Below are positions 26,944-63,877 of a DNA stretch of 64,000 bases, in pieces (the stretch's first letter is position 1; each line of letters opens with the position of its first letter). Position numbers and translations under genes: made by a program. Under the pieces are notes generated by a model. That model searched no databases, was not told where the DNA came from, and saw nothing but the letters and a program-made list of their open reading frames with translations. Source of the DNA: Paramagnetospirillum marisnigri (GTDB lineage Bacteria > Pseudomonadota > Alphaproteobacteria > Rhodospirillales > Magnetospirillaceae); NCBI RefSeq assembly GCF_001650715.1, contig NZ_LWQT01000037.1, positions 1-64,000 of the forward strand, written 5' to 3'.

Positions 26944-28194
26944 ATGACCAGTCTCAAGTCCGATTTCCTGCGCACCGTCACCGAGCGCGGCTACATGCAC
27001 CAGTGCACCGACCTGGAAGCCCTGGACAAGCGTCTGACCGAGGGCTGCCAGGCCGCCTATATCGGCTTCGACTGCACCGCCACCTCGCTGCATGTGGGCG
27101 GGCTGATGCAGATCATGCTGCTGCGCTGGTGGCAGAAGACCGGCCACAAGCCCATCGTCCTGATGGGCGGCGGCACCACCCGCATCGGCGACCCCACCGG
27201 CAAGGACGAATCGCGCAAGATGCTGTCGGACGCCGACATCCAGCGCAACATGGATGGCATCAAGACCGTGTTCGGCAAATACCTGTCGTTCGGCGCGGGC
27301 GCCACCGACGCGGTGATGGTCAACAACGCCGACTGGCTGGACAAGCTGAACTATATCGACTTCCTGCGCGACTACGGCCACCACTTTACCATCAACCGCA
27401 TGCTGACCTTTGATTCGGTCAAGCTGCGGCTGGAACGCGAGCAGCCGCTCACCTTCCTGGAATTCAACTACATGCTGTTGCAGGGCTATGACTTCGTCGA
27501 GCTGTTCCGCCGCAACCGCTGCATCCTGCAAATGGGCGGCTCGGACCAGTGGGGCAATATCATCAACGGCGTCGAGCTGGGCCGCCGCGCCGATCAGGCC
27601 GAGCTGTTCGGCCTGACCAGCCCGCTGCTGACCACCGCCTCGGGCGCCAAGATGGGCAAGACTGTCAATGGCGCCGTCTGGCTGAACGCCGACATGCTCA
27701 GCCCCTGGGAGTTCTGGCAGTACTGGCGCAACACCGAGGACGCCGATGTGGGCCGCTTCCTCAAGCTCTACACCGAACTGCCCCTGGACGAGATCGCCAA
27801 GCTGGAAACCCTGCAGGGCGCCGAGATCAACGAGGCCAAGAAGGTGCTGGCGGGCGAGATCACCCGGCTGTGCCATGGCGAGGCCGCCGCCCGTGAAGCC
27901 GCCGAGACGGCGCGCCGCACCTTCGAGGAAGGCGCCGCCGATGCCAATCTTCCCACCGTCGAAATCACGGCCGCCGAGCTGGCGGCGGGCATTCCCGCCT
28001 TCGCCCTGTTCGTCAAGGCCGGGCTGGCCGCCTCGAACGGCGACGCCAAGCGGCTGATCAAGGGTGGCGGCGGCAAGGTCAACGACGCCGGACTGGACAG
28101 CGAGACCCGCGCCATCGGCGAGGCCGACCTCAAGGACGGCGTCATCAAGCTGACGGCAGGCAAGAAGCGTCACATCCTGGTCAAGCCGGTCTAG
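26944..28194 (+). CDS. tyrS: Tyrosyl-tRNA synthetase
   Basis: This is a class I synthetase of 416 residues. It has [15 protein letters not shown] (HIGH-equivalent), [34 protein letters not shown], and [14 protein letters not shown] (KMSKS-equivalent). A C-terminal S4 RNA-binding domain ([18 protein letters not shown]) follows. The upstream Shine-Dalgarno is weak. Confidence 0.97.
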
Positions 28195-28210
28195 GCTGGA
28201 AACCCTGCCC

Positions 28211-28316
28211 TGTCATCCCGAGCGACGGCGAGGGATCTCCGCCTGGACTGCCGGTGCCACGACTGACATGCCGGATCAGGACGAGATCCCTCCGCCCGAT
28301 GGGCGTCGGGATGACA
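28211..28316. repeat. Intergenic ~106-bp imperfect inverted repeat, family shared with 50654-50759
   Basis: TGTCATCCCG (28211-28220) and CGGGATGACA (28307-28316) form the outer arms. Inner GGATCT and AGATCC pair as well. A relative with the same order of blocks lies at 50654-50759. It sits between convergent tyrS and cyaY and may also end transcription. Confidence 0.75.
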
Positions 28317-28324
28317 TCGACGGA

Positions 28325-28630
28325 TTACAGCGCGATCCCCAACTCCCGGGTCAGCAGCGCCACCAGCGACACCGAGGCATCGCGGGTCGAGACCCAGTCG
28401 CCATCGCGCTGCGCGAAATGAAAGGCGCCGCTTTTCGGCGAGGACAGCCAGATTTCCCGGTTGGGGGCGTGCTTGTTGATCACGTATTGCCCAATGCCGG
28501 GCAAGGTGATGGTCAGGATGCCCGACTGGATATCGGCGTCGGCATCGTCGTGGGTATCCTCGACCGCGTCCGCCACGCGTTCCAGAAACCGATCGGCCAT
28601 TGTGGCGAAAGCGTTCTCGTCCAGACTCAT
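28325..28630 (-). CDS. cyaY: Frataxin CyaY
   Basis: CyaY binds iron and IscS and tunes cluster assembly. The 101-residue protein has the acidic first helix (ADAVEDTHDDADADIQSG), then LTITLPGIGQYVINKHAPN, REIWLSSPKSGAFHF, which is the frataxin sheet with its Trp. GGAG precedes the ATG. It is encoded 8 kb from the isc operon. Confidence 0.93.
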   Translation of the reverse strand: MSLDENAFATMADRFLERVADAVEDTHDDADADIQSGILTITLPGIGQYVINKHAPNREIWLSSPKSGAFHFAQRDGDWVSTRDASVSLVALLTRELGIAL

Positions 28631-28753
28631 TCCATGCTCTCCAAGGAGGGGGGCGGGAAGCTTAACGCGAATTCGACGTCCGGGTGAAGGATGGCTTGCG
28701 CCGATGACGCGTTTTCGTTATAGAGGCGCCTTCGATTTGCGGAGCACCAGGCC

Positions 28754-28987
28754 ATGAAGGAAAACATTCACCCCGACTACCACGAAATCAACGTGGTGAT
28801 GACGGACGGCACCGAGTTCACGACCCGCTCGACCATGGGCAAGGCCGGCGACACCCTGCGCCTGGACATCGACCCCAAGTCGCACCCGGCCTGGACCGGC
28901 GTGCACCGTCTGGTCGACAGCGGCGGCCAGCTCGCCAAGTTCAAGAAGCGCTTCGAAGGCTTTGGCATCAAGTCGACCAATACCTGA
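28754..28987 (+). CDS. rpmE: 50S ribosomal protein L31 (zinc-free form)
   Basis: The 77-residue protein starts [20 protein letters not shown] and ends [15 protein letters not shown]. It lacks the CxxC zinc pair of the C+ type and has SHPAWTG in its place, so it is the zinc-independent form. GGAG precedes the ATG. Confidence 0.95.
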
Positions 28988-29002
28988 TATCAAGACCGGA
29001 CC

Positions 29003-29026
29003 GGCGGCGGCTTGCGGGCCGCCGCC
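29003..29026 (+). terminator. GC-rich hairpin after rpmE
   Basis: GGCGGCGGC (29003-29011) pairs with GCCGCCGCC (29018-29026), starting 16 bp after the rpmE stop. The T-tail is poor. Confidence 0.5.
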
Positions 29027-29151
29027 CGTTCTCCCATATCCCAGCCAGCATCCGTGACATCGAAGCCGACCAATTGTCGGCCATTGGCGTTTGCGGTGGA
29101 CATCACTTGCCGAAGGGATTAGAGCAAGTTTAGGGATTACTGGGCGCAACC

Positions 29152-30939
29152 ATGATCATCGTCCATTTTGAAGTCTATGTCCTCGAAGGCCGAGGCTGGA
29201 TGCTCCATGCGCGCTTCCCGCGCCTGGAACGGGACGAGGCCGTGCGCGAAGCCAAGGAAATCGAAAACACCATGGGCATCCGCACCAAGGTGGTGCGCGA
29301 GACCTATAACACCGACACCAATGCCTTCGACGAAGCCGATGTCTATGTCAGCGGCAATGTCGTCGCGCCTAAGAAGGGCGGGTTGGCGAGGGGTGGTGGA
29401 GGTGGCGGCGGTGGCGGCGGCCGCGGTGCTTCCGCCGATAGCGGCCACAAGGGCGGCGGCAAGAAGGGCGGCGGCGCGGCGGCGGTGGCGGCGGCGCGCA
29501 GAGGCGGCACCCCTCATCACGAAACCGCCGGGGCCTTCACCGTCGTCTTCCGCATGCTGATTGTCCTGCTGGTGGCGGCGGGACTGGCGCTGGGCGCCCT
29601 GCGCCTGGTCCCCATCATTGTCACCTTCCTCTATGATTATGGATTCAAGGTCACTCCCGACGAATACGGCCAGTTGCTGTTCGCCGTGTTCGTCCTGGTG
29701 ATGCTGATGACCGGCGTGCCGCTGGGCCTGCGCATGATGCCGCACCGGGCCCATTTCCGGCTGAGCACCCCATCCGTCAACTGGAACCGGAATAAGCCTG
29801 CGTCCGCCGCCACGACCGATCCCAAGCTGAAAAAGTCCCTGAACAAGCTGGCCGCCGACGCCGCCTTGGAGCAGATTCCCGACAAATGGGCCGATGACGA
29901 ACCCGAGGAGCCCCCCTTTCCCGCCTCCGAGGACGAGAACCTGCCCGAGATTCTTCCCGGCCCCGAGGAGGACGAGCCGCCGCCGCTGTCGGAAGACAGC
30001 ACGGTATCCGCCGCCCTGGCCGAGGCCGCCCCCAAGACCCCGGCACTGGAAGCCTGCCAGGCGGTTTCCGGCCGTTTTGTCGACAAGGCGATCGAGGTGG
30101 TGCGCCAAAGCGGTGCCCAGCAGGACAAGTACACCCTGTTCGGTCTCAACCTGTTCATGGCCGGTGCCATCCAGGCCCTGGCCAGCTCCAAGAAGCTGGA
30201 TTCCGAAGGCCAGCGCCATCTGCTGAAATCCATCATCGAGAAGCTGGGAACCCCGGCCAGCCAGTCCGGCCAGTTCTATGAGAAGGTCATGGACTACGCC
30301 CGCGAGCCCCGTTACGGCAAGATGGTGATGGCGGGCAAGGAAGCCATGGATTCCTGGGCTTCCGGCGACGAACTGACGCCTCAGATCAAGCTGCAGACCT
30401 CGCTCAAGGACTGGAACAAGCCATCTTCGGAAAAGAAGCCGTCCATCATGACAGTGATGTTCACCGACATGGTCGGCTCCACCGACCTGACCCAGGCCCG
30501 CGGCGACGTCGCCGCCCAGGAGATCGTGCGCAAGCACAACGCCATCGTACGCACCGCCCTGACCCAGTTCGCCGGGCACGAGGTCAAGCATACCGGCGAC
30601 GGCATCATGGCGTCCTTCCCCTCGGCCTCCAACGCGGTGGATGCGACCATCCAGATCCAGCGCCAGGTGGCGACCCACAACGAGAAGAACCCCAATCTGC
30701 CGCTGCATCTGCGCATCGGGCTGAATTCCGGCGAACCCATCCAGGAAGAGGACGACCTGTTCGGTTCGACGGTGCAGCTGGCCGCCCGCGTCTGCGCCGC
30801 CACCCAGTCGGACCAGACGCTTTGCACCCAGGTGGTCAAGGACCTGGCCGGGTCGAAGCCCATTCCCTGGGGCAATGCGGGCATGCATGCGCTCAAAGGC
30901 TTCCGCGACAAGTTCCAGCTGTGGGAAATCCCCTGGTAG
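29152..30939 (+). CDS. Membrane class III adenylate/guanylate cyclase
   Basis: The 595-residue protein has an N-terminal domain (1-75), a Gly-rich linker with a run of ten glycines, two membrane helices (about 128-150 and 172-195) and a Pro/Glu-rich acidic linker. A helical domain (about 290-410) and a C-terminal cyclase domain from about 425 follow. The metal-binding pattern is visible in MFTDMVGSTDLTQARGD and KHTGDGIMASFPSA, so it is likely active. LRIGLNSGEPIQEEDDLFG is typical of the class. The signal that controls it is unknown. The Shine-Dalgarno is weak. Confidence 0.88.
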   Translation: MIIVHFEVYVLEGRGWMLHARFPRLERDEAVREAKEIENTMGIRTKVVRETYNTDTNAFDEADVYVSGNVVAPKKGGLARGGGGGGGGGGRGASADSGHKGGGKKGGGAAAVAAARRGGTPHHETAGAFTVVFRMLIVLLVAAGLALGALRLVPIIVTFLYDYGFKVTPDEYGQLLFAVFVLVMLMTGVPLGLRMMPHRAHFRLSTPSVNWNRNKPASAATTDPKLKKSLNKLAADAALEQIPDKWADDEPEEPPFPASEDENLPEILPGPEEDEPPPLSEDSTVSAALAEAAPKTPALEACQAVSGRFVDKAIEVVRQSGAQQDKYTLFGLNLFMAGAIQALASSKKLDSEGQRHLLKSIIEKLGTPASQSGQFYEKVMDYAREPRYGKMVMAGKEAMDSWASGDELTPQIKLQTSLKDWNKPSSEKKPSIMTVMFTDMVGSTDLTQARGDVAAQEIVRKHNAIVRTALTQFAGHEVKHTGDGIMASFPSASNAVDATIQIQRQVATHNEKNPNLPLHLRIGLNSGEPIQEEDDLFGSTVQLAARVCAATQSDQTLCTQVVKDLAGSKPIPWGNAGMHALKGFRDKFQLWEIPW

Positions 30940-30940
30940 C

Positions 30941-31342
30941 TCAGTGCAGCACGCGCCGCACCATCATCTCCTCCAGCCGCGCCACCCGCACGTAAAGGCG
31001 ATAGCTGCGGTCCATCAAGCTGCGAAGGCCGCTGGGCAGGCTGGCGTCATGGGTAAAACTCTCGTCCAGACAGACCCCCGCCCCCGACAGGCGAGAGGAC
31101 TCGGCCAGGGCCTCCTCGGGGCTGAGCTCGCCCACATGCACCGCCCGCTGTGTCAGCAGCCACGCCATCACCTGGGTCAGCCGCGACGTCACCCGCATGG
31201 CCTCGCAGCTCATGCGCAATCCAACCGTCGCCCCGGCCTCAATCCGCTCGCGGCGCTCGATGAACCGCATGTAGTTACGCGCCTCGACCATCAGGTCCAT
31301 GGCTTCGTCATAGGTGCGATGGAAGAACGCGGGTCGCTCCAT
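30941..31342 (-). CDS. DUF1465 family protein
   Basis: The 133-residue helical protein has FHRTYDEAMDLMVEARNYM, CEAMRVTSRLTQVMAWLL, and SYRLYVRVARLEEMM, the pattern of the alphaproteobacterial DUF1465 family of unknown role. GGAGGAG precedes the ATG at 31342. It converges on the cyclase gene with a 1-bp gap. Confidence 0.85.
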   Translation of the reverse strand: MERPAFFHRTYDEAMDLMVEARNYMRFIERRERIEAGATVGLRMSCEAMRVTSRLTQVMAWLLTQRAVHVGELSPEEALAESSRLSGAGVCLDESFTHDASLPSGLRSLMDRSYRLYVRVARLEEMMVRRVLH

Positions 31343-31691
31343 GCATTCTCCTCCAACCCCCCTCGTCAGGGCGCCTAGACCGGTTGCCCCAAGGAAGGAA
31401 AGCCACGGGCACTTGGCCTCCTCTTCTCCAAGGTGACACCTGGACCTAGCCCCTTCAACGGGTGAAGACCTGACCCGTCCCCCAACACGGGCTATCCATA
31501 TGATTTCATGGATGTATTTTTTTACAGCCTCCGCCGACGCGGGCACCGACAGAGCAAGACAGCGATGACAACGGCGAGAATTGAAGTAAAAATTTACATA
31601 AAATTGCTATGTTAAGGCATTCACTGAATAAATTATCGCCAGCGCTCACAATAACATCATGAGAGCAACAATTTGACCTGGCTGGTGTATC
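31343..31691. other. 349-bp intergenic region
   Basis: No coding frame is supported. The part from 31550 on is AT-rich and should hold the promoter of the 64-aa gene; no convincing -35/-10 pair could be fixed. ATCCAT / ATGGAT around 31493-31512, followed by seven T, is a weak terminator-like hairpin on the plus strand. Confidence 0.4.
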
Positions 31692-31886
31692 ATGCGTTTC
31701 GTCATCTCAGAGAGCTTCGACAAAAGCGAAGTCAACCGCTACTTCGAGTCCGACATGTTCCCGAAAGTCGGACAGTCGTTCAAAACCCGCAGCGGCAAGT
31801 GGTATCGCATCAAGGATGTGGGCTGGACCATGGATGCCTTCGACCACCACCCCAACATCCAGGTGCTGTTGACCCGCATCCAGTAG
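31692..31886 (+). CDS. 64-aa protein of unknown function
   Basis: The start is MRFVISESFDKSEVNRYFES. The sequence has many aromatic residues (KWYRIKDVGWTMDAFDHHPN) and ends VLLTRIQ, which looks like a compact folded domain. No clear Shine-Dalgarno is seen. It is followed by a strong hairpin. No family is recognised; the AT-rich upstream spacer suggests it is a single-gene unit. Confidence 0.6.
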   Translation: MRFVISESFDKSEVNRYFESDMFPKVGQSFKTRSGKWYRIKDVGWTMDAFDHHPNIQVLLTRIQ

Positions 31887-31902
31887 GCCGGGCCGCCGAG
31901 CC

Positions 31903-31931
31903 GGGCATTCCCGTCAGCCAGGGGAATGCCC
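31903..31931. terminator. Hairpin between the 64-aa gene and tupA
   Basis: GGGCATTCCC (31903-31912) pairs exactly with 31922-31931. It lies between two convergent stop codons and probably serves both genes. Confidence 0.7.
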
Positions 31932-31942
31932 GCGCCACCGGC

Positions 31943-32755
31943 CTATTTTGCGCTGGGGAAGAACAACTGCTCATCCCCGATCTTGAAACCGGCAATGGCG
32001 GCCTGCCCCTTGGGTCCGGTCAGCCATTGATGCCAGGCCTTGGCATCGGCGGATTTGATGCCGGAATGACGGGCCGGGTCCACCAGGATCGAGCCATAGG
32101 GATTGAACAGGGCCTTGTCACCTTCCAGGACGATGGCCAGGGACTGGCGGTTCTTGAAGCTGGCCCAGGTGCCGCGATCGGCCAGGACATAGGCGTTCAT
32201 CCCGGCGGCGGTATTCAGGGTCGGCCCCATGCCCGAGCCCAGCTCCCTGTACCAGCCGCTTCCCGCCGCCTTGACGTCGACACCGGCCGCCTTCCAGATG
32301 CGCAGCTCGCTGCGATGGGTGCCGGAATCGTCGCCGCGCGAGGCGAAAGCCGCCTTGGCGGCACCGATACGCTTGAAGGCCTCGGCCACGTCCTTGACGC
32401 CCTTGACCTTGGCCGGGTCGTCCTTGGGACCGATCAGCACGTAGTCGTTGTACATGACGTCGCGGCGGTCGATGCCGAACCCCTCGGCCACGAATTTGTC
32501 CTCGCCCAACCGGTCATGCACCAGCAGGACATCGGCGTCGCCGCGCTCGCCCAGTTTCAGCGCCTGGCCGGTGCCCACCGCCACCACCCGCACCCAGATG
32601 CCGGTCTCGGCCCGGAACATGGGCAGCAGATGGCCGAACAGCCCAGACTGCTCGGTGGAGGTGGTGGAAGCCAGGGTGATGAAACGCTCCTGCGCCATCC
32701 CCTGCCCCGCCAGCGAACACAGCAGCACGGCCGCCATGAATATCCGTCTCAGCAT
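31943..32755 (-). CDS. tupA: Tungstate-type ABC transporter, substrate-binding protein
   Basis: The 270-residue protein has a signal peptide (MLRRIFMAAVLLCSLAGQGM, cleaved after AQA-like AMA). The TupA family pattern follows: ITLASTTSTEQSGLFGHLLP, VGTGQALKLGERGDADVLLV, FASRGDDSGTHRSELRIW. It captures tungstate or a similar oxyanion in the periplasm. The gene order is tupB-tupC-tupA, with a 7-nt overlap to tupC. Which metal is bound cannot be read from the sequence. Confidence 0.9.
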   Translation of the reverse strand: MLRRIFMAAVLLCSLAGQGMAQERFITLASTTSTEQSGLFGHLLPMFRAETGIWVRVVAVGTGQALKLGERGDADVLLVHDRLGEDKFVAEGFGIDRRDVMYNDYVLIGPKDDPAKVKGVKDVAEAFKRIGAAKAAFASRGDDSGTHRSELRIWKAAGVDVKAAGSGWYRELGSGMGPTLNTAAGMNAYVLADRGTWASFKNRQSLAIVLEGDKALFNPYGSILVDPARHSGIKSADAKAWHQWLTGPKGQAAIAGFKIGDEQLFFPSAK

Positions 32756-33483
32756 ACCAGTTCTCCCGCTAGGAATGCCCGGGCCCGCGCGCTGGCGGGC
32801 CCTTTGAAGAAAATCGAGGCGGGCGTGCGCTCTTCCAATGCGCCGCCTGCCAGGAACACCACCTCGTCGGCCAGCCGCCGGGCCTGGCCGAGGTCGTGGG
32901 TGGTCATGACGATCTTGGCCCCCGATCCATGGAAATCCTGGATCGCCGTTTCCACCGCCTGGGTCGCGGCCGGGTCCAGCGCCGAGGTGGGCTCGTCCAG
33001 AAACAGGATTTCGGGCTCCATCACCCAGGCCCGCGCCAGGGCGAGGCGCTGCTGCTCGCCGCCCGACAGCACCCGGGCGGGACGCAAGGCAAGATCGGCC
33101 AGATCGAACCGCGCCAGCGCCGCCATGGCCGCCGCCTGCCTGCGGTGGCGGGGCATTCCCATCAGGCCAAGGACGTAGCGGATATTGGCCAGGGCCGAGC
33201 GCCGCAACAGCACCGGCCGCTGGAACACCATGGCCTGACGGCGGCGCAGCCCTTCCGCCGCCATGGCGCCGTCGCCCCAGCGGATACTGCCGCCGGTGGG
33301 CGTGAGCAGGCCATGACACAACCGCAACAGCAGGCTCTTGCCCGCGCCATTGGGGCCGAGCACCAAGGTGCGCGACCCCGCCTCGAGGCGCAGGCTGATA
33401 TCGCGTATAAGGGGACGTCCCCCGGCCGAGAAGCCGACCCGGGACAATTCCAGCGGCAGGATGGAGCCATCGCGTCCGACCAT
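32749..33483 (-). CDS. tupC: Tungstate-type ABC transporter, ATPase
   Basis: The 244-residue ATPase has Walker A LVLGPNGAGKSLLLRL, Q-loop VFQRPVLLRRS, signature VLSGGEQQRLALARA, Walker B ILFLDEPTSALDP and switch His in VMTTHDLGQARRLA. It powers the TupB permease. Coding overlaps join it to both neighbours. Confidence 0.92.
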   Translation of the reverse strand: MVGRDGSILPLELSRVGFSAGGRPLIRDISLRLEAGSRTLVLGPNGAGKSLLLRLCHGLLTPTGGSIRWGDGAMAAEGLRRRQAMVFQRPVLLRRSALANIRYVLGLMGMPRHRRQAAAMAALARFDLADLALRPARVLSGGEQQRLALARAWVMEPEILFLDEPTSALDPAATQAVETAIQDFHGSGAKIVMTTHDLGQARRLADEVVFLAGGALEERTPASIFFKGPASARARAFLAGELVC

Positions 33484-34187
33484 CAGCCCATTCCCCGCTT
33501 GGCAGCCTGCCCCACCATGAATACCGCCGCGTTCACCACCGTCACCAGCCCGATCAGGATCAACCCCAATGCCAGGGCCAGGGGCAGATCGCCCTTGCTG
33601 GTTTCCAGGGCGATGGCTGTGGTCATGGTCCGGGTCACTCCGTTGATGTTGCCGCCAACGATCATCACCGCCCCCACTTCGGCCGAGGCGCGGCCAAAGC
33701 CCGCCAGCACGGCGGTCAGCAGGCTGAAGCGCCCATCCCATAGCAAGGTCAGCACCACCGACCCCCGGGGCGCCCCCAGCGAGCGAAGCTGTTCGCCGTA
33801 TTCCTCCCACAGATCGGCCACCACCTGACGCGACAGGGCGGCGATGATGGGCAGCACCAGCACGGTCTGGGCCATCATCATGGCAGTGGGCGTGAACAAC
33901 AGCCCCAGTTCGCCCAATGGCCCGGCCCGCGACAGCAGCAGATAGATGGCCAGCCCCACCACCACCGGCGGCAGGCCCATGCAGGCGTTCAGGACCACCA
34001 CCACCGCGCCCCGGCCGGGAAAGGTGAACAGCGCCAGCGCGGCGCCCAGCGGCAGGCCGATCAGCGCCGCCAGCACCACCGCGCCGCCGGAAACCTGCAC
34101 CGACAGGGAAACAACGGCCAGCACCCTGGGATCAAGGCTGGAGACCAGGCTGGCGGCGGTGGACAGGGCGGCGGCAAGATCGTGCAT
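33483..34187 (-). CDS. tupB: Tungstate-type ABC transporter, permease
   Basis: The 234-residue permease has about five membrane helices and the EAA-type loop (EEYGEQLRSLGAPRGSVVLT). GFGRASAEVGAVMIVGGNIN is typical of TupB/ModB-like permeases. The start 34187 has AGGA upstream. It is the first gene of the three-gene operon. Confidence 0.9.
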   Translation of the reverse strand: MHDLAAALSTAASLVSSLDPRVLAVVSLSVQVSGGAVVLAALIGLPLGAALALFTFPGRGAVVVVLNACMGLPPVVVGLAIYLLLSRAGPLGELGLLFTPTAMMMAQTVLVLPIIAALSRQVVADLWEEYGEQLRSLGAPRGSVVLTLLWDGRFSLLTAVLAGFGRASAEVGAVMIVGGNINGVTRTMTTAIALETSKGDLPLALALGLILIGLVTVVNAAVFMVGQAAKRGMG

Positions 34188-34363
34188 GGAACGTCCTTTT
34201 CCTACGCCATTGTGCATTCGTTCCGGATCATTGTTAAGAAACGAATGACCTCGCAGGGAATGCGGACATTCTGATGCCTGAAAAGCTTGAATTCCGGCGC
34301 CCGAGTCCGCTAAGTCACGCGCTTGTTCCCCTATGCCCCGTTCCCTCATGCTTAGGACCCGTC

Positions 34364-35728
34364 ATGCCCAGCCCCCGCCCCCAGGTTGCCCCCAAGGTCG
34401 GAATCGTCAGCCTCGGCTGCGCCAAGGCGCTGGTGGATTCCGAACGCATCCTGACCCGCCTGCGGGCCGAGGGCTATGACATCTCGGGCTCCTATGACGG
34501 CGCCGACGTGGTGATCGTCAATACCTGCGGCTTCCTGGATTCCGCCCGCGCCGAGTCGCTGGAGGCCATCGGCGAGGCCATCGCCGAGAACGGCAAGGTC
34601 ATCGTCACCGGCTGCATGGGCGGCGACGAGAAGACCATCCGCGCCATGCACCCCTCGGTGCTGGCGGTCAGCGGCCCCCACCAATACCAGGCGGTGGTCG
34701 AGGCGGTGCACGCCGCCGTGCCGCCGCTCCACGACCCCATGCAGTCGCTGGTGCCGCCGGAAGGCCTGCACCTGACGCCCTCGCACTATGCCTATCTGAA
34801 GATTTCCGAGGGCTGCCACAACAGCTGCTCGTTCTGCATCATTCCCGATATCCGGGGGCCGCTGGCCTCGCGCCCGGTCACCGACATCCTGGGCGAGGCG
34901 GAACGCCTGGCCGAGGCGGGCGTGCGCGAACTGCTGGTGATCAGCCAGGACACCAGCGCCTATGGCCTCGACCTGCGCCACGCCGAAAGCCAGTGGCGCG
35001 GCCGCCCGGTGCGCGCCCATCTCACCGACCTGGCCTCGGCCCTGGGCGATCTGGGCATCTGGGTGCGGCTGCACTACGTCTACCCCTATCCCCATGTGGA
35101 CGAGGTCATCCCGCTGATGGCCGAGGGCAGGATTCTCCCCTATCTCGACATCCCTTTCCAGCATGCCGCCCCCAATGTGCTGAAGGCCATGCGCCGCCCC
35201 GCCAACCAGGAAAAGGTGCTGGGCCGCATCCGCTCGTGGCGGGAGACCTGTCCCGATCTCGCCATCCGCTCCACCTTCATCGTCGGCTTCCCCGGCGAGA
35301 CCGAGGATGATTTCGAGGCGCTGCTGGACTGGCTGGACGAGGCCCAACTCGACCGGGTCGGCTGCTTCAAGTACGAGAACGTCAAGGGAGCGGGAGCCAA
35401 CGCCTTCGCCGACCACGTGGACGAGGACGTCAAGGAGGAACGCCACCAGCGATTCATGGAGGCCGCCCGCCAGATCGCCGACGCCAAGGCGCAGGCGCGG
35501 GTGGGCACCGTGGTCGAGGTGATCATCGACGAGGTGGACGACGAAGGCGCCATCGGCCGCAGCAAGGCCGACAGTCCCGAAGTGGATGGCGAGGTCTATA
35601 TGAATGGCGAGACCGATCTCGCCCCTGGGGATCTGGTCAGGGTCGCGGTGGAAGCCGCCGAGGATTATGACCTGTGGGGAGAGGTGGTCGAGCGCATCAC
35701 GCCGCCCCGCCCCCGCTTCACCCGCTGA
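34364..35728 (+). CDS. rimO: Ribosomal protein S12 methylthiotransferase RimO
   Basis: This radical-SAM enzyme adds a methylthio group to an Asp of S12. The 454-residue protein has the UPF0004 cysteines in [23 protein letters not shown] and [10 protein letters not shown], the radical-SAM triad GCHNSCSFC and a C-terminal TRAM domain ([20 protein letters not shown]). It needs two [4Fe-4S] clusters. AGGA lies before ATG 34364. Confidence 0.96.
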
Positions 35729-56460: not shown

Positions 56461-57518
56461 GCCTGCTGGCCCGCCGCCTGCCCCTGCTGATGGGGGGAGC
56501 CGTATCGCTGATGGTGGGCATGGCGGCCGGACTGGGACGCCTGGGTTGGCCCGGCCCCGGCACCGATGCCATGGCGGTGCATGGCGCCTTGATGATTTCG
56601 GGATTCTTCGGGACGGTGATCGGTCTGGAACGCGCCGTGGCGCTGGGGCGTCCCTGGGGCTATGTCTCGCCCCTCGCCGCCGCGCTCGGCGGCATCGGCC
56701 TGATCCTGGGGCAAGGACAGATCGGCGGCCTGCTGCTCTGCCTGGGCAGCCTGGTCTTCGTCGCCATGAGCATCGCGGTGCTGATCCGCCAGCGCGAGGT
56801 CTTCACCCTGGTCCTCGGCCTGGGCGGTGTCGCCTGGCTGGGGGGCAATCTGGCTTGGCTGGCCCGGGGCGAACCCGCTTCGGCGGTGGTCCCCTGGGCC
56901 GCCTTCCTGGTCCTGACCATCGCGGGGGAACGGCTGGAACTGTCGCGCTTCCTGCCGCCCTGGCGCTGGCGCACCCCCACCCTGCTGCCGGTGCTGGGCC
57001 TGCTGATGGCGGGGGCGGTGTCGGCCGGCCTGGGCTGGGAACTGGCCTGGACACCGTTCGGCCTCGGCCTGATCGGACTGGGATTGTGGAGCATGCGCAA
57101 CGACGTGGCCCGACGCACCATCCGCCAGAGCGGCCTGCCCCGCTATGTGGCGGTCTGCCTGCTGTCGGGCTATGGCTGGGTCATGGTCGCGGGCCTGCTG
57201 ATGCTGGGCCTCCGGCTGGGAGAAGGCGGCGCCTGGGCCGACGCCGCCCTGCACGCCCTGTTCGTCGGCTTCGTCTTTTCCATGGTGTTCGGTCACGCCC
57301 CCGTGATCCTGCCCGCCGTGCTGCGGGTGGGCGTCCCATTCCGGCCGGTGTTCTATCTCCCCCTGGGCCTGCTGCATGCCTCGCTGCTGCTGCGCCTGGT
57401 GGGCGACCTCGCCGAGAGTCACGCGGTGCGGCAATGGGGCGGACTGGCCAATGCCGCCGCCGTCCTGGTCTTCATCGCCACCACCCTGACCGTGGTGCTG
57501 CGGGCACGGAAAGCCTAA
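56457..57518 (+). CDS. NnrS-like multi-spanning membrane protein
   Basis: The 353-residue protein has about ten to twelve membrane helices. MAVHGALMISGFFGTVIGLE and HALFVGFVFSMVFGHAPVIL carry the His/Gly patterns of NnrS, a heme-copper-linked protein of nitric-oxide stress. It is coupled to the DUF59 gene. The homology is moderate. The stop overlaps that of the opposite O-glycosyltransferase gene. Confidence 0.72.
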   Translation: MSLLARRLPLLMGGAVSLMVGMAAGLGRLGWPGPGTDAMAVHGALMISGFFGTVIGLERAVALGRPWGYVSPLAAALGGIGLILGQGQIGGLLLCLGSLVFVAMSIAVLIRQREVFTLVLGLGGVAWLGGNLAWLARGEPASAVVPWAAFLVLTIAGERLELSRFLPPWRWRTPTLLPVLGLLMAGAVSAGLGWELAWTPFGLGLIGLGLWSMRNDVARRTIRQSGLPRYVAVCLLSGYGWVMVAGLLMLGLRLGEGGAWADAALHALFVGFVFSMVFGHAPVILPAVLRVGVPFRPVFYLPLGLLHASLLLRLVGDLAESHAVRQWGGLANAAAVLVFIATTLTVVLRARKA

Positions 57519-59521
57519 CCGTCCCGCCACAGCCGCCGGTCGGGCGGCAGCGGGCGGAAGCGATGACGCGCCGCCAGCCGTTCCGTCCACCAGCCGGGAT
57601 AATCGGTGATGCCGGTGCCGTCCATCTGGTCGTAGTCGGCGAAGATGCCGACCTCGAGATAGGCATCCAGATTGGCGAGATCGGGCTGGGGCAGCCTGCC
57701 CGCCTGATGGTCCCGCCACATGGCCTGGAACAGTTCCTCCAGCTTGCGCGCCAGCAACGTGGTATCGAACAGGACACAGTTGCCCCGGTTCATCTCCAGG
57801 CGCTGGCGCAAGGCGGCCAGGGCGGCGGGGTCGCGGCCGAGAGCCACGGCGCGGGATACGTAGTCGCCGGGCGTCTCGCACACCAGGTCGTCCAGCCCGG
57901 CCGAGCGCACCAGGCTGCCGCAGACCCGGGCGGCGAAGGAGCGCCCCGACAGGGTCAGCACCGGCACCCCCATCCACAGCGCATCCGAGGCGGTGGTATG
58001 GGCGCCATAGGGGAAGGTATCCAGGAACAGGTCGGCCAGGGGATAGCGGGCGAGATGGTAGGGATTGGCCAGCTTGTCAGCGAAGACCAGCCGGGCGGGA
58101 TCAAGGCCCCGGGCGGCGGCCTGCTCGCGCAGATGGGCCTGGGCGCCCTCGGCGCCGCTCAGCAGCCACAGCACGCTGCCCGGCACCTGCGCCAGGATGT
58201 CCAGCCAGCGCTCCACCGTGAAGCGGGTCAGCTTGTGCAACCCGTTGAAGCAGCAATAGACCACCGCGTCCTCGGGCAGACCGGCATCGGCGCGGGCGGG
58301 CCGGTTGGGGGCGATCACCCGCTTGCGGTCATTGGGCTGGTAGCAGGGCAGCCGCAGCACCTTTTCCGAATAATAGCCTTCCGACTCCTCGGGAATGATC
58401 CAGTCGTCGGCGATGATGTAGTGGTGATAGGGGCTGCCCATGGTGCCGGGAAAGCCCAGCCAGTTGACGATCACCGGCGCCGGGCGCAGCGCGATCAGCT
58501 TGGTGCGGCCGTCCCTGGTATAGCCGTTCAAGTCCACCAGGATCTGGATGCCGTCCGCCGCCATGCGGGCCGCCGCCTCGGCATCACCCATGGCGGAAAT
58601 ATCGATCCAATGGTCGAAGCGCGCCTTGATCCGCCGGTTCAACGGGTCGTCGGAGGGAATGCCGCAATAATAGGCGAACAGCTCCACCTTGGCCTTGTCG
58701 TGTTCCTCGAACAGCTCCACCGTCAGATGCCCCACCGCATGCTCGCGCAGGTCCGACGACAGATAGCCGATACGCAACCGCTCGCCCCGCGCGGCACGGG
58801 CCTGGTCCAGCATGGGCGGCTCGGCGACGGGCAGGCCGACATCAAGCCGGTTGTAGTTCCATGCCGCCGCCAGATGCAGCAGCGGATCGTCGGCATAGGC
58901 GGCCATGGACAAGGGCGACATGCCCTCCATCAGCACGGAACGGCTGACCCGATCCCAGGGCTGCACCACCGGCCATTCACACTGGCGCTGGCGGAGCGCC
59001 AGGAAATGCTGGATCACCTCGCGCTGCACCGGCTCCAGGTCCAGGCTCTGGCGCAGCATGGATTCGGCGGCCTCGTCCTGATTGCCCGCCTCCAGCACCC
59101 GGCCCATCTGGTTGAGCGCGGTGGTCTTGTGGCTGATGGCCGAGCCGGTCACCCCGGCCAGCCGGTCGACCATGGCCGACCACTGGGTCACCGCCGCCGC
59201 CGCCGAGCCCAAACGTTCATGCACCCGGCCCAGATTGACATAGGCGGGGTAGAAATCGGGGTTGAGCGCGATGGCGCGTTCCAGGCTGTCGCGGGCCGGC
59301 CCCAACTCGCCCGCATCCATCTGCACCACGCCGAAATTGAACAAGACGGCATAAAGCAGCGGATTGTCGGGGTTATGGCGGACCCAGGCCTCGTACAAGG
59401 TCGCGACGAAAGAGGCGCCATCGCTGAGCCGGATGGCCTCGGCGGCCTGGATCAGGTCGAGAACGCTGAGATTCCGCCCCACGGCGCGGTCGATCGCCGT
59501 CGAAAACAACTCGCTTGCCAT
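57515..59521 (-). CDS. TPR-containing O-glycosyltransferase, GT41 (SPINDLY/OGT-like)
   Basis: GT41 enzymes put a sugar, often GlcNAc or fucose, on Ser/Thr. The 668-residue protein has TPR units in residues ~40-200 (LERAIALNPDFYPAYVNLGR) and a C-terminal catalytic region. YLSSDLREHAVGHLT carries the catalytic-His region, then VDLNGYTRDGRTKL, LRPAPVIVNWLGFPGTMG, NGLHKLTRFT with the sugar-binding Lys, and LDTFPYGAHTTASDALWMG. Key OGT residues are kept. It starts 21 bp after the Thr/Ser-repeat gene, its likely substrate. An AGGGG lies upstream at long spacing. Confidence 0.92.
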   Translation of the reverse strand: MASELFSTAIDRAVGRNLSVLDLIQAAEAIRLSDGASFVATLYEAWVRHNPDNPLLYAVLFNFGVVQMDAGELGPARDSLERAIALNPDFYPAYVNLGRVHERLGSAAAAVTQWSAMVDRLAGVTGSAISHKTTALNQMGRVLEAGNQDEAAESMLRQSLDLEPVQREVIQHFLALRQRQCEWPVVQPWDRVSRSVLMEGMSPLSMAAYADDPLLHLAAAWNYNRLDVGLPVAEPPMLDQARAARGERLRIGYLSSDLREHAVGHLTVELFEEHDKAKVELFAYYCGIPSDDPLNRRIKARFDHWIDISAMGDAEAAARMAADGIQILVDLNGYTRDGRTKLIALRPAPVIVNWLGFPGTMGSPYHHYIIADDWIIPEESEGYYSEKVLRLPCYQPNDRKRVIAPNRPARADAGLPEDAVVYCCFNGLHKLTRFTVERWLDILAQVPGSVLWLLSGAEGAQAHLREQAAARGLDPARLVFADKLANPYHLARYPLADLFLDTFPYGAHTTASDALWMGVPVLTLSGRSFAARVCGSLVRSAGLDDLVCETPGDYVSRAVALGRDPAALAALRQRLEMNRGNCVLFDTTLLARKLEELFQAMWRDHQAGRLPQPDLANLDAYLEVGIFADYDQMDGTGITDYPGWWTERLAARHRFRPLPPDRRLWRDG

Positions 59522-59542
59522 CGAAATTCTATGCCCCTGTCA

Positions 59543-62500
59543 TCAGTCCAAAGCGGTCAACATGGCGTCGACCTGAAGATCGGTCATGGCCTCCACCTGG
59601 GCCTGGGTGAAGGCCTCGGCCTGGGCCGAACTGAGCGCCGCGATCAAGGTGGTGGTCAGGCCGCCGATCTGGGTGGTGGTCAGGCTGGCCACCGCCGTGG
59701 CGGTCAGGCCGCCGCCCTGGGTGGTGGTCAACGCCCCCAGTTGGGTGATGGTCAGGCCGGGGGCCTGGGCCGCCGTCAGGGCCGACACCTGGGTCGAGCT
59801 CATCACCCCCAACTGGGTGGTGGTCAGGCCGCCGATGGCGGTCGAGGTGATGCCGCGCAACTGGGTCGCGGTCAGCGCCGCCGCCTGGGTGGTGGACATT
59901 CCCGCGATCTGGGTCACGCTCAACCCGGCGAAGCCGGTGGTGCTGAGACCGGCGGTCTGGGTGGCGGTCAGCGCCGCCAGTTGGGTGGTGGACAGTCCGC
60001 CCAGGCCAGTGCTGGTCAGCACCCCCATCTGGGTGCTGGTCAGGCCGCCCAACTGCGTGGTGTCAAGGGCGCCGAGCACGGTGGAGGTCAGGGTCTGGGC
60101 CTGGCTGGTGGACAGCGCCCCCACCTGGGTGCTGGTCACCCCGGACAACTGGGTGGTGGTCAGGGCGGCGAACTGGGTCGAGGTCAGCCCCTTGACCTGA
60201 TTGGTACCCAGGGCGCCAAGCCCGGTGCTGGTCAGACCGGTCAGCTGGGTGGTGGTCAGGGCGCCCACCTGCAGCGAGGTCAGGCTGCCGATCTGGGTGG
60301 TGGCCAGCCCGCCGATCTGGGTGCTGGTGAAGCCCTTGACCTGGGTGGTGGTCAGCGCCAGCAGCTGCGTCGCGGTGATGCCGCCCAATTGCGTGGTGTC
60401 CAGGGCCGCCAGCAAGGTGGTGCTCACCCCCGGCAAGCCCACCGCCGACAGCTTGCCCACCTGGGTCGAGCTGAGGCTGGCCAGTTGAGTGGTGGTCAGG
60501 CCCAGCAGGCCTGCCGAACCCAGCCCGCCCATCTGGGTGGTGGTCAGCGCGCCGAGCATGGTGGTGGACAGCCCCGCCATCTGGGTCGAGGTCAGTTGGG
60601 CCAGCGACGCCGCCGCCAGCGCCGAGGCCTGGGTGGTGGTCAGGGCGTTGAGGACGGTGGTGTCCAGGCTGCCGAGCTGGGTGGCCGTCAAGGCTCCCAT
60701 CTGGGTGGTGGTCAGGGCCCCCAGCTGAGTCGTGGTCAAGGCCGCCATGCCCGAGGAACTGAGCCCCTTGACCTGGGTGGTGGTCAGCCCCGACAGCACC
60801 GTGGCGGTCAGGCCGCCCATCTGGGTGGTGGTCAGGGCGCCGAGCTGGGTGGTGGTCAGTCCCCCGGCCTGGGTCGTGGTGAATTCGGGCAGCTGCGTCA
60901 CCGTCAGGGCCTTGACCTGAGTGGTGGTCAGCGATCCCAGCAAGGTGGCGTTCAACCCGTTCAACTGGCTGGTGACCAAGGCGGCCACATTGGTGGTGGA
61001 CAGCGCCCGGACCTGGGTAGTGGTCATGGCATCCACCTGGGTCGAGGCCAGCCCCGCCAGCACGGTGGTGGTGATGGCGGTCATTCCGGCGGCGGTCAGG
61101 CCCTTGATCTGGGTGGTGGTCAGGCCCTGCAGCCCGGTGGTGGTCAGGCCGCCCAACTGGGTGCTGGTCAGGGCGCCAACCTGGGTGCTGGTCAATCCGC
61201 CCAGTTGGGTGGTGGTCAGCGCCGCCATCTCGGTGGTGGTCAGCCCGGCGCCTTGCGCCGTGGTCAGCCCGCCCAGCTGGGTACTGCTCAAAGCGCCCAA
61301 CTGGGTGGTGGTCAGGGCGGCGATGCCGGTGGCGGGCAGTCCCTTGATCTGGGTGGTGGTCAGCGCCGACAGCTGGGTGGTGGTCACGGCGCCGATGCCC
61401 GTGGTGTTCAGCACCCCTAACTGGGTCGAGGTCATGCCCGCCAACTGGGTGGTGGTGATGGCCGCCAACTGGCCCACATTGAGCCCCAGCAGGGCGGTGG
61501 TGGACAAGCGCCCCAGTTGGGTGCTGGTCATGCCGGGAACCTGGGCCACGTCGATGGCGGCGAAGCCGGTCGAGGTGATGCCACCGATGGCCGCCGGAGC
61601 CACGGCCCCCAACTGGGTGGAACTCAGCGCCAGCCACTGGGTCCCGGTCAGCGCCCCACCCTGGGCCGCCGTCAGCCCGCCCAGTTGCGTGGTGCTGAGG
61701 CTTGCCATCTGGGTGGCGGCCAGACCGGCGATGCCGGTGGTGGACAATACCGCCATCTGGGTGGCGGTCAGTCCCGCCAGTTGGGTGGTGGTCAGCGCCG
61801 CCAGGTCGGTGGAACTCAACCCCGCCGCCCCCAGGGTGGACAGTCCGCCCAATTGGGTCGAGGACAAGGAACCCAGTTGGGTGGTGGTGAGCACGGCCAC
61901 GCCGGACGAGGTCAGACCGCCCAGTTGGGTGGTGGTCAGCGCCGCGACGGTGGTGGTGGTCAGGGCGACGAGGGTGGTGGTGGTCAGCACCCCGATCTGG
62001 GTGCTGGTCAATCCGCCCAGTTGGGTGGTGCTTATACCCGCCAAGCCGGTACTGGTCCACATGCGGGACTGGGTGGTGGTCATGGCCCCGATCTGGGTGC
62101 TGGTCAGGCCCAATATCTGGGTGGCGGTCAAGTCGTCCAGTTGAGTGGTGGTCAGCGCCCTGATCTGGGCGGTGCTCATGGCTCCCAACTGGGTCGGGGT
62201 CAGGCCGTCGAAGGCGGTGGTGCTGAAGGCGGCGATCTGGGTGGTGGTGAAGCCGCCGACCTGGGTGGTGCTGAACTCTCCCATCTGGGTCGAGGTGAAG
62301 CCCAGCAATTGGGCGCTGGTCAGGGTCGCCAGCTGGGTTGCGGTCAATCCGTCCAACTGGGTGGTGGTCAGCGCCGCCAGTTCGGTGGTGGTGAAGGCCT
62401 TGATCTGGGTCGCGCCCAGCACCCCCATCTGGGTACTGGTCAAGCCCGCCAGCTGGGTGGTGGTCATGGCCGCCAACTGACCGGCATTCAGGCCGGTGAC

Positions 62501-63877
62501 CTGGGTGGTGGTCAGGGCGGCGATCTGGGTCTCGCTCACCGTCGCCAATTGGGTGGCGCTCATGACCGACAGCGCGGTCGTGGTCAATCCGGCGGCCTGG
62601 GTGGTGGTCAGCGCCGCCAGCTGGGTGCTGGTGAGCGCCTTGGCCTGGGTGGTGGTGATGGCGCCAAGCCCGGTGCTGGTCAGACCCGCCAACTGGGTGG
62701 TGGTCAAGGCCGCCAGCCCGACCACGCTCAGCCCCTTCACCTGGGTGGTGGTCAGCGCCGACAGTTCGGTGGTGGTGATCCCGGCCAGGGCGGTGGTGGT
62801 CAGCGCCCCCAACTGGGTCGAACTCAGCCCCGCCAGTTGGGTGGTAGTCAGCGCGCCGAGCACGGTGGAGGTCATGGCGGCCACGGCGGTAGCCCGCAGA
62901 TTGGCCAGTTGGGAACTGGTCAGGCCCGCCAGTTGGGTGGTGGTCAGCGCCGCCACTTCCTCGGTGCCCAGGCCCATGGCCTGGCTGGTGGTCAGTCCGC
63001 CCAGGTCGGTTTCGGTCAGGGCCGCCAGTTGGGTGGTATTCAAGGCGGTCAGCTGCGACGAGGTCAGGCCCGCCAACTGCCCCGCGCTCAGGGCATCCAC
63101 CTGGGTGCTGGTCAAGCCGCCGATGGCGGTGGTGCTCAGGCCGCCGAGCTGGGTCGCGCTCAGGCCGCCCAGTTGGGTGGTGGTCAGCGCCGCCATCTGA
63201 CCCGAGGTCAGGCCCGCCATGCCCGCCGCCGACAGTCCCGACAGCTGGGTCGAGCTCAGCGCCGCCAGTTGGGTGGTGGTCATCACCGCCAGGCAACTGG
63301 CGGTCAGACCCCCGGCCTGGGTACTGGTCAGACCCGCCAGGGTGGTGGTTGTCAGGGTCGAGGCCAAGGTGGTGGACAGGCCCGCCATCTGGGTGATCGC
63401 CAAGCCACCGAGCTGGGTGGTGGTCAGGGCATCCAGGGTGGTGGTGGTCACGCCCCGGATCTGGGTGGTGGTCAAGGCCCCGAGCTGGGCCGGGCTCAAA
63501 CTCGCCAATTGGGTGGTGGTCAACGCCGCCAGTTCGGTGCTGGTCAGCCCCTTCATCTGCTGGGTGCTCAGAACCGCCAGCTCGGCCACCTCGATGGCCT
63601 GGACCTGGGCGGCGGTCAGCACCGCCAGTTGGGACGAGCTGAAGCCCATCTGACCCGGACTAAGCGCCGTGATCTGGGTGGTGGTCAGCCCCGCCATCTG
63701 GCTGGTGGACAACCGCGACAGCTGGGTGCTGCTCATGGCGCCGATGGCGGTAGTGGTGAAGGCGCCGATCTGGGTGGTGGTGAGCGCGCGGAAATCCGTG
63801 GCCGACATCCCCGAGACCGCCGTGGTGGTCAGGTTGGATATCTGGGTGGCGGTGAGATAGGAAACCGGCGAGACCAC
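59543..63877 (-). CDS. Giant Thr/Ser-rich octapeptide-repeat protein
   Basis: The 1444-residue protein is built almost entirely of an 8-residue unit, L-(T/S)-(T/S)-T-Q-(L/I/M/V)-small-small, about 175 times. About three of eight positions are Thr or Ser. Hydrophobic residues at positions 1 and 6 would suit a beta-solenoid or stacked fold. Only one cysteine was noticed (LTASCLAV). The N-terminus MVSPVSYLTATQISNLTTTA has no signal peptide, and the C-terminus (VEAMTDLQVDAMLTALD) is acidic. The GTG start is two codons after an in-frame TGA. It is paired with the GT41 gene, so many Thr/Ser could be glycosylated. Function and location are unknown. Confidence 0.85.
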   Translation of the reverse strand: MVSPVSYLTATQISNLTTTAVSGMSATDFRALTTTQIGAFTTTAIGAMSSTQLSRLSTSQMAGLTTTQITALSPGQMGFSSSQLAVLTAAQVQAIEVAELAVLSTQQMKGLTSTELAALTTTQLASLSPAQLGALTTTQIRGVTTTTLDALTTTQLGGLAITQMAGLSTTLASTLTTTTLAGLTSTQAGGLTASCLAVMTTTQLAALSSTQLSGLSAAGMAGLTSGQMAALTTTQLGGLSATQLGGLSTTAIGGLTSTQVDALSAGQLAGLTSSQLTALNTTQLAALTETDLGGLTTSQAMGLGTEEVAALTTTQLAGLTSSQLANLRATAVAAMTSTVLGALTTTQLAGLSSTQLGALTTTALAGITTTELSALTTTQVKGLSVVGLAALTTTQLAGLTSTGLGAITTTQAKALTSTQLAALTTTQAAGLTTTALSVMSATQLATVSETQIAALTTTQVTGLNAGQLAAMTTTQLAGLTSTQMGVLGATQIKAFTTTELAALTTTQLDGLTATQLATLTSAQLLGFTSTQMGEFSTTQVGGFTTTQIAAFSTTAFDGLTPTQLGAMSTAQIRALTTTQLDDLTATQILGLTSTQIGAMTTTQSRMWTSTGLAGISTTQLGGLTSTQIGVLTTTTLVALTTTTVAALTTTQLGGLTSSGVAVLTTTQLGSLSSTQLGGLSTLGAAGLSSTDLAALTTTQLAGLTATQMAVLSTTGIAGLAATQMASLSTTQLGGLTAAQGGALTGTQWLALSSTQLGAVAPAAIGGITSTGFAAIDVAQVPGMTSTQLGRLSTTALLGLNVGQLAAITTTQLAGMTSTQLGVLNTTGIGAVTTTQLSALTTTQIKGLPATGIAALTTTQLGALSSTQLGGLTTAQGAGLTTTEMAALTTTQLGGLTSTQVGALTSTQLGGLTTTGLQGLTTTQIKGLTAAGMTAITTTVLAGLASTQVDAMTTTQVRALSTTNVAALVTSQLNGLNATLLGSLTTTQVKALTVTQLPEFTTTQAGGLTTTQLGALTTTQMGGLTATVLSGLTTTQVKGLSSSGMAALTTTQLGALTTTQMGALTATQLGSLDTTVLNALTTTQASALAAASLAQLTSTQMAGLSTTMLGALTTTQMGGLGSAGLLGLTTTQLASLSSTQVGKLSAVGLPGVSTTLLAALDTTQLGGITATQLLALTTTQVKGFTSTQIGGLATTQIGSLTSLQVGALTTTQLTGLTSTGLGALGTNQVKGLTSTQFAALTTTQLSGVTSTQVGALSTSQAQTLTSTVLGALDTTQLGGLTSTQMGVLTSTGLGGLSTTQLAALTATQTAGLSTTGFAGLSVTQIAGMSTTQAAALTATQLRGITSTAIGGLTTTQLGVMSSTQVSALTAAQAPGLTITQLGALTTTQGGGLTATAVASLTTTQIGGLTTTLIAALSSAQAEAFTQAQVEAMTDLQVDAMLTALD
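59630..63860. repeat. Degenerate 24-bp tandem repeats coding for the octapeptides
   Basis: The DNA has a 24-bp period with frequent GTGGTGGTCAG and CCAGTTGGGT-like blocks, degenerate at many positions. It produces long open frames on several strands. The tract is prone to slippage and to misassembly, so its unit number should be treated with care. Confidence 0.85.

Follow-up and report, generated by a model that had tools for sequence, protein, structure and literature searches.

Serine-rich repeat adhesins combine Ser/Thr-rich repeats with an adjoining cytoplasmic O-glycosyltransferase, GtfA/GtfB, and a dedicated exporter. Their glycosyltransferases belong to a family other than GT41, export runs through the accessory Sec pathway, the proteins are anchored in the Gram-positive cell wall, and the repeats are thought to be disordered. 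In Haemophilus, the GT41-family enzyme HMW1C glycosylates a large secreted protein in the cytoplasm and is described as a third partner of the secretion system (PMC3983070). HMW1C belongs to an N-linking subtype in which an AAD fold takes the position of tetratricopeptide repeats (TPRs), and HMW1A is exported by two-partner secretion with a signal sequence (PMC3983070). In Caulobacter, FlmG is a soluble cytoplasmic protein composed of TPRs and a glycosyltransferase, which binds flagellin through the TPRs before export (PMC7591256).

Here, we analyze a two-gene locus of Paramagnetospirillum marisnigri in which a gene for a protein built of eight-residue repeats (octads) is followed by a gene for a TPR-containing GT41 glycosyltransferase. 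The window is the whole stretch of DNA that was analyzed, 64,000 nucleotides of contig NZ_LWQT01000037.1. The pair resembles the serine-rich repeat adhesins in its Ser/Thr-rich repeats and its neighboring glycosyltransferase, but the N-terminal signal sequence of those adhesins has no counterpart in 46 octad proteins when judged by hydropathy only. It resembles HMW1A/HMW1B/HMW1C in associating a GT41 enzyme with a large protein, whereas the window enzyme contains TPRs and is OGT-like, and octads are not mentioned for HMW1 in the portion of that account drawn on here (PMC3983070). The window enzyme is also similar to FlmG in its TPR plus glycosyltransferase build, as far as a comparison by description can tell, but FlmG differs in its substrate, flagellin, and its sugar, pseudaminic acid (PMC7591256). 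By analogy, our best reading is that the octad/GT41 pair would work like HMW1/HMW1C and flagellin/FlmG and would belong to neither.

The Octad-Repeat Gene

The octad-repeat gene (59543..63877, minus strand) begins with a GTG start codon and encodes 1444 residues that match the ALTTAQ repeat of Pfam, PF20080, with an E value of 7.2e-173 (560.4 bits in 61 stretches, curated cut-off 26.4 bits). An earlier note, made from the DNA letters, described a 1444-residue protein with about 175 octads of the form LTTTQLxx; the length stands, and a register parse corrects the number to 180. According to this parse, the consensus is L-T-T-T-Q-L-(A/G)-(G/A), the leading letters of the columns being L (0.77), T (0.63), T (0.50), T (0.77), Q (0.69), and L (0.48), followed by A/G and G/A. 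Thr and Ser constitute 33% of the residues, and charged residues amount to 31 Asp+Glu and 20 Lys+Arg. The only register break lies at residue 78 (63644..63646, minus strand). Among 25 parsed octad proteins, 19 have at most two breaks, and G030 and G774 have 43 and 14, respectively.

The octad observation is confirmed, and the open reading frame is a real gene, because the orthologue in genome G014 also has 1444 residues, aligns without a gap over 1444 columns at 58% identity, and diverges most at third codon positions (identity 0.66/0.77/0.58 at the three positions; dN 0.35, dS 0.71). The accompanying GT41 genes of the two genomes are 76% identical (dN 0.18, dS 0.68). Long plus-strand frames over the octad DNA seem to be antisense by-products, as one stop in the window frame becomes eight in the orthologue. 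Matches to CAAP1 (34 bits, above the cut-off of 25), to LRR_EndoS (below its cut-off), to polyphosphate kinase, and to leucine-rich-repeat chains were dismissed as compositional. No flagellin model is present among the three Pfam matches of the window protein.

The GT41 Enzyme

The octad gene is separated from the GT41 gene by 21 bp (59522..59542, minus strand), with AGGGG before the ATG of the latter, and the two genes are probably carried on one transcript. A TPR-GT41 gene at this distance had been proposed in the earlier note, and domain models bear it out. The 668-residue product (57515..59521, minus strand), a member of the octad-linked subfamily, scores 273.8 bits against Glyco_transf_41 (PF13844, cut-off 25), and the models TPR_12, TPR_8, TPR_2, TPR_17, and TPR_14 exceed their cut-offs, the TPR region covering residues 59-162 (59036..59347, minus strand). 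A profile of 18 octad-linked enzymes matches the OGT structures of human, fly, and Xanthomonas with E values below 1e-126 and SPINDLY at about 1e-98, but for the N-glucosyltransferases 8j30 and 3q3e the E value is only about 2e-8. The HMW1C-like N-glucosyltransferase model NF049992 gives 27.6 bits on the window enzyme against a cut-off of 1000 bits, and an N-glycosyltransferase reading was rejected for this reason.

Two residues invariant in the 18 rows are His261 (codon 58739..58741, minus strand), which aligns with the His of the SSDF..H segment of human and fly OGT, and Lys430 (codon 58232..58234, minus strand), which aligns with a Lys of the human OGT and XcOGT chains; the fly OGT chain 5a01 has Met in the latter column. 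We take them to be equivalent to H498 and K842 of human OGT, the presumed active-site His and Lys. In the segment H508-T509-T510, T510 is invariant and H508 and T509 are conserved in at least 90% of the 18 linked enzymes. These alignments point to an OGT-type, putative Ser/Thr O-glycosyltransferase.

In a midpoint-rooted FastTree phylogeny of the GT41 rows that passed a length filter, a branch with SH-like support of 96 sets apart 109 of 141 rows; 94 of these carry an octad label from their locus. L200, a piece of an octad-linked G008 gene, is among the 15 rows of the group without such a label, and 13 octad-labelled rows lie outside it. GT41 paralogues from five magnetospirilla (G002, G005, G007, G008, and G014) also fall outside the group; those of the window genome were removed by the filter. 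The 3-3.7-kb loci examined for the GT41 paralogues showed no octad ORF.

Several larger architectures also occur. In Magnetococcales (L252, L271, and G529:C92 near 27047-35542), single frames of about 2500-3800 residues contain several GT41 units, and the G529 frame adjoins a giant octad protein. Long GT41 proteins close to an octad gene are found at L167:9355-13134 (1259 residues) and L173:2231-5914 (1227 residues), the former fused to a GT2 domain according to Pfam and adjoining ABC and HlyD genes. Octad open frames of 5675-6436 residues exist in the Magnetococcales-type genomes G540:C1, G529:C1, and G494:C40.

Predicted Structure of the Octads

A 200-residue stretch (60644..61243, minus strand) modelled by AlphaFold2 shows one short helix for nearly every octad with a pLDDT of 96.9 and a pTM of 0.88, values that may be flattered by an alignment of 72 fragments picked in register. 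A single-sequence model of the N-terminal 330 residues (62888..63877, minus strand) has the same pattern with a few longer, fused helices (pLDDT 80.6, pTM 0.59). The motif L-[T/S]-x-x-Q-[LIV] is presumably the capping-box and hydrophobic-staple pattern of helix starts, and on that assumption position 2 of the octad is given a structural role, and positions 3 and 4 are taken to be free. Each octad, L-[T/S]-x-x-Q-[LIV]-x-x, would thus fold as one short helix with residue 2 as the cap and residues 1 and 6 in the core; residues 3 and 4 would lie in the first helical turn and would presumably be exposed.

The same repeat is found in PDB entry 9ZEM, HeliScrew4, a 120-residue protein that is artificial to judge by its name and matches the octads in register over 108 residues by sequence (E 4.5e-26). 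It carries Pro-Glu, Pro-Asp, or Val-Asp at positions 3/4. Term searches of the open-licence literature found no paper on HeliScrew4 (9ZEM) or on the ALTTAQ repeat, and neither for PF20080 nor for 9ZEM do the names and scores compared here mention a GT41 partner. A Foldseek search gave no match at E <= 0.001, the best being mesothelin (E 2.6e-3, TM 0.40). The Thr triplets had also been considered as part of a beta-helix or ice-binding fold, but both AlphaFold runs gave short helices and zero strands. A disordered mucin-like chain was ruled out by the predicted short helices together with the rarity of register breaks in the parsed proteins. The models predict a folded helical solenoid; the whole protein would be very long and rod-like.

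Conservation of the Gene Pair

PF20080 occurs in 20 of the 60 genomes nearest to the window, counting its own. Among the 16 other genomes of its genus, 12 have the repeat. A GT41 gene of one cluster comes next on the same strand after 17 of 20 repeat ORFs scored in the window genome and its relatives, with the window pair counted. Scored ORFs have a 3' end uncut by a contig end, and one region was taken per genome, or two for the window genome; this leaves out the unscorable G012, the octad fragments that G009 and G013 carry on additional contigs, and a 1412-residue frame in G004. The three ORFs without a GT41 neighbor are the C45 copy of the window genome and those of G019 and G054, in both of which the linked-type GT41 sits on another contig (967 and 976 bits). 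Since the other neighbors differ between most genomes, the pair itself is the unit. G008 has two GT41 genes in tandem after its octad gene and, before it, genes for a radical SAM protein, a glycosyltransferase, and an epimerase; by cluster assignment, these upstream genes are shared by G016 and G010. The C45 octad protein has 2743 residues (57506-65737 of its contig, minus strand) and a lower position-3 hydroxyl fraction, 0.40, and may be served in trans by the window GT41.

The repeat is sparse at greater distance: the class sample has it in 5 of 384 other genomes, the phylum sample in 20 of 397. In the distant genomes G260, G756, and G774, GT41 is immediately downstream of the octad gene, the G774 enzyme being outside the main enzyme group, and in G232 and G328 it lies about 6 kb upstream. 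For many other octad genes of these samples, no GT41 was seen within the stretch fetched.

Scanning named genomes with the GT41 alignment gave 79 nearest loci among the matches listed, 69 of which have an octad ORF within 10 kb (68 in a slightly different earlier count). This ORF is immediately upstream on the same strand in 58 and elsewhere in 10; one is classed as downstream (L226, which has an upstream ORF too). Ten loci have none, some with little upstream DNA, such as L211 (Verrucomicrobia UBA1319). Because the query alignment was made from octad-linked enzymes, the nearness of these loci to them is by design, and the point of the scan is that the nearest enzymes keep an octad partner. 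The taxa listed include Magnetospirillum, Azospirillum, Caulobacteraceae, Asticcacaulis, Roseomonas, Methylobacterium, Rhizobium, and Sinorhizobium, as well as Magnetococcales, Desulfovibrio, Solidesulfovibrio, Verrucomicrobia, Opitutaceae, Polyangiaceae, and Marinimicrobia. At the level of sequence, the pairing recurs in bacteria of several phyla, with the qualification that many named loci are from metagenome-assembled genomes, in which misbinning is possible, and several are the same genomes as those given G handles. The co-occurrence elsewhere that the earlier note proposed to look for is thus found in both surveys. Its statement that no system of this layout was known needs dividing: term searches of the open-licence literature (without bioRxiv) showed no description of the pairing among the matches listed, but the repeat is already catalogued as a Pfam family, so that the novelty lies in the pairing.

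Hydroxyl Residues and the Enzyme

For octad ORFs of at least 40 octads, the larger of the Thr/Ser fractions at positions 3 and 4 was compared between linked ORFs, which have a subfamily-type GT41 (>600 bits) within 10 kb, and unlinked ORFs, which have none in the stretch fetched; both sets include some duplicate loci and close kin. None of 109 linked ORFs lies below 0.5 (minimum 0.55), against 8 of 52 unlinked ORFs (0.27-0.44), in which Ala, Pro, Glu, Asp, and Lys are common at these positions. Thr/Ser at position 2 is 0.66-0.80 in the eight hydroxyl-poor ORFs and has a median of 0.78 in the linked ones, so that the capping role is untouched. Overall Thr/Ser content shows no difference with respect to the enzyme and was dropped as a marker.

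In family f197, the repeat is present in 21 of 151 genomes, of which 20 were compared after G833 was dropped for want of a clean octad ORF. All 12 genomes with the enzyme have at least 0.61 at positions 3/4, and six of the eight without it are below 0.5, the others being G858 (0.52) and G898 (0.65). The difference (Fisher 7e-4; by genus, 0/9 versus 4/6, p 0.011) comes from a comparison made after seeing the data, with related genera counted and 4 of 20 values taken from 3-kb fragments. A prediction set beforehand had unlinked ORFs as hydroxyl-poor. In a fresh set, 4 of 25 unlinked ORFs conformed to it, and 16 of 16 linked ORFs were high; as the prediction failed for most unlinked ORFs, the genome-level comparison is post hoc.

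Eight of the 21 failing ORFs are in genomes with the enzyme elsewhere. Ten belong to G1000, G1001, G1002, and G1006, which have only other-branch GT41s (534-546 bits); in G1006, one of these is situated within about 1 kb of an octad ORF, and the coordinates indicate the same for G1002. Two are those of G898 and G858, genomes without a GT41 match at E 1e-30, and one is in G988, a genome outside the search, with a 588-bit GT41 433 bp away. Conversely, four of the eight hydroxyl-poor ORFs (G232b, G1012, G1015, and G494) come from genomes with the enzyme. Thr/Ser at positions 3/4 tracks the enzyme as a statistical link, with exceptions and partly post hoc. Octad proteins of about 1400-1700 residues with frequent Ala, Pro, or Asp at positions 3/4 and no GT41 nearby were seen at L160, L101, and L106 (G794, G099, and G232b).

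Export

Within the first 45 residues of the 46 octad proteins with a called start, no hydrophobic N-terminal segment is present; the highest 12-residue hydropathy is 1.89, in a check that used hydropathy only and a cut-off of 2 chosen by the analyst. Type I exporter genes are found in 12 of the 79 nearest named loci listed, nine with both ABC and HlyD and three (L263, L270, and L277) with one of the two at a contig edge. According to Pfam, ABC and HlyD genes also adjoin the octad genes of G232, G466, G471, and G504. No type I exporter gene was recognised among the listed neighbors of the window pair, and the best match to the linked ABC exporter is 31% identical in the window genome and about 30% in G008. 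Exporter presence in relatives is weakly associated (11/20 versus 9/40, p 0.02, with a cut-off picked on seeing the list). Because exporter genes lie beside the pair at several related loci, the probable destination of the rod is the cell surface or matrix.

Interpretation and Alternatives

We consider the locus a two-gene O-glycoprotein module, with a probability of roughly two in three, in which the octad rod is glycosylated in the cytoplasm by its own GT41 and then probably exported. The upstream gene would make a long, in-register solenoid of short octad helices, and the GT41 would glycosylate many of these octads in the cytoplasm at the Thr/Ser of positions 3/4, so that the rod becomes coated with sugar. 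Where an exporter exists, this rod would leave the cell, probably for the cell surface or matrix, and act as an adhesin, coat, or scaffold. The earlier note's idea of a dedicated O-glycosylated surface, filament, or scaffold system is in this way partly supported. Known OGTs prefer extended peptides, so that a folded octad may be a poor acceptor. With little more than even confidence, we further incline to regard such proteins as an undescribed, widespread class of folded O-glycoproteins: helical-screw rods of hundreds of octads whose exposed Thr would be sugar-coated by an OGT-type enzyme kept across several phyla.

A glycosylated octad protein could instead remain intracellular and serve as a soluble scaffold or ruler rod, with sugar keeping a very long, nearly uncharged solenoid in solution. 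The missing hydrophobic signal in all 46 proteins, the distant exporter matches of the window genome and G008, and the small number of charged residues among the 1444 of the octad protein are in keeping with this. The ABC and/or HlyD genes at 12 of the 79 listed loci and beside the octad genes of four further-named genomes speak for export, and we think an intracellular rod improbable, if still worth weighing. There could also be no sugar at all, Thr at positions 3/4 only suiting an unmodified helical solenoid. Helix capping explains the Thr/Ser of position 2, the fold is predicted without sugar, and G898 and G858 have 0.65 and 0.52 at positions 3/4 without any GT41 match. Yet octad proteins rich in Ala, Pro, Glu, Asp, or Lys at these positions exist, and HeliScrew4 has Pro-Glu, Pro-Asp, or Val-Asp there, from which it follows that Thr is not needed for the fold; Thr at positions 3/4 goes with the enzyme instead, which makes a purely structural role quite unlikely. 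It is more doubtful again that the substrate of the GT41 is a glycan or some other protein and that the two genes merely travel together. GT41 genes are held by 54 of the 60 related genomes, often in several copies, and some Thr-rich octad proteins have no GT41 nearby, but order and strand are constant in differing surroundings, the partners belong to one enzyme group, and it is positions 3/4, not position 2, that follow the enzyme.

Biological Significance

If the module reading is true, it provides the large set of bacterial OGT-like enzymes in this GT41 subfamily with a natural substrate. Regularly glycosylated octad solenoids would be a folded alternative to disordered mucin-like glycoproteins, and the gene pair would constitute a two-gene kit for regular sugar-coated rods. 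As the pair is common to magnetospirilla, magnetococci, rhizobia, and members of the Caulobacteraceae, it may then shape how such cells meet surfaces.
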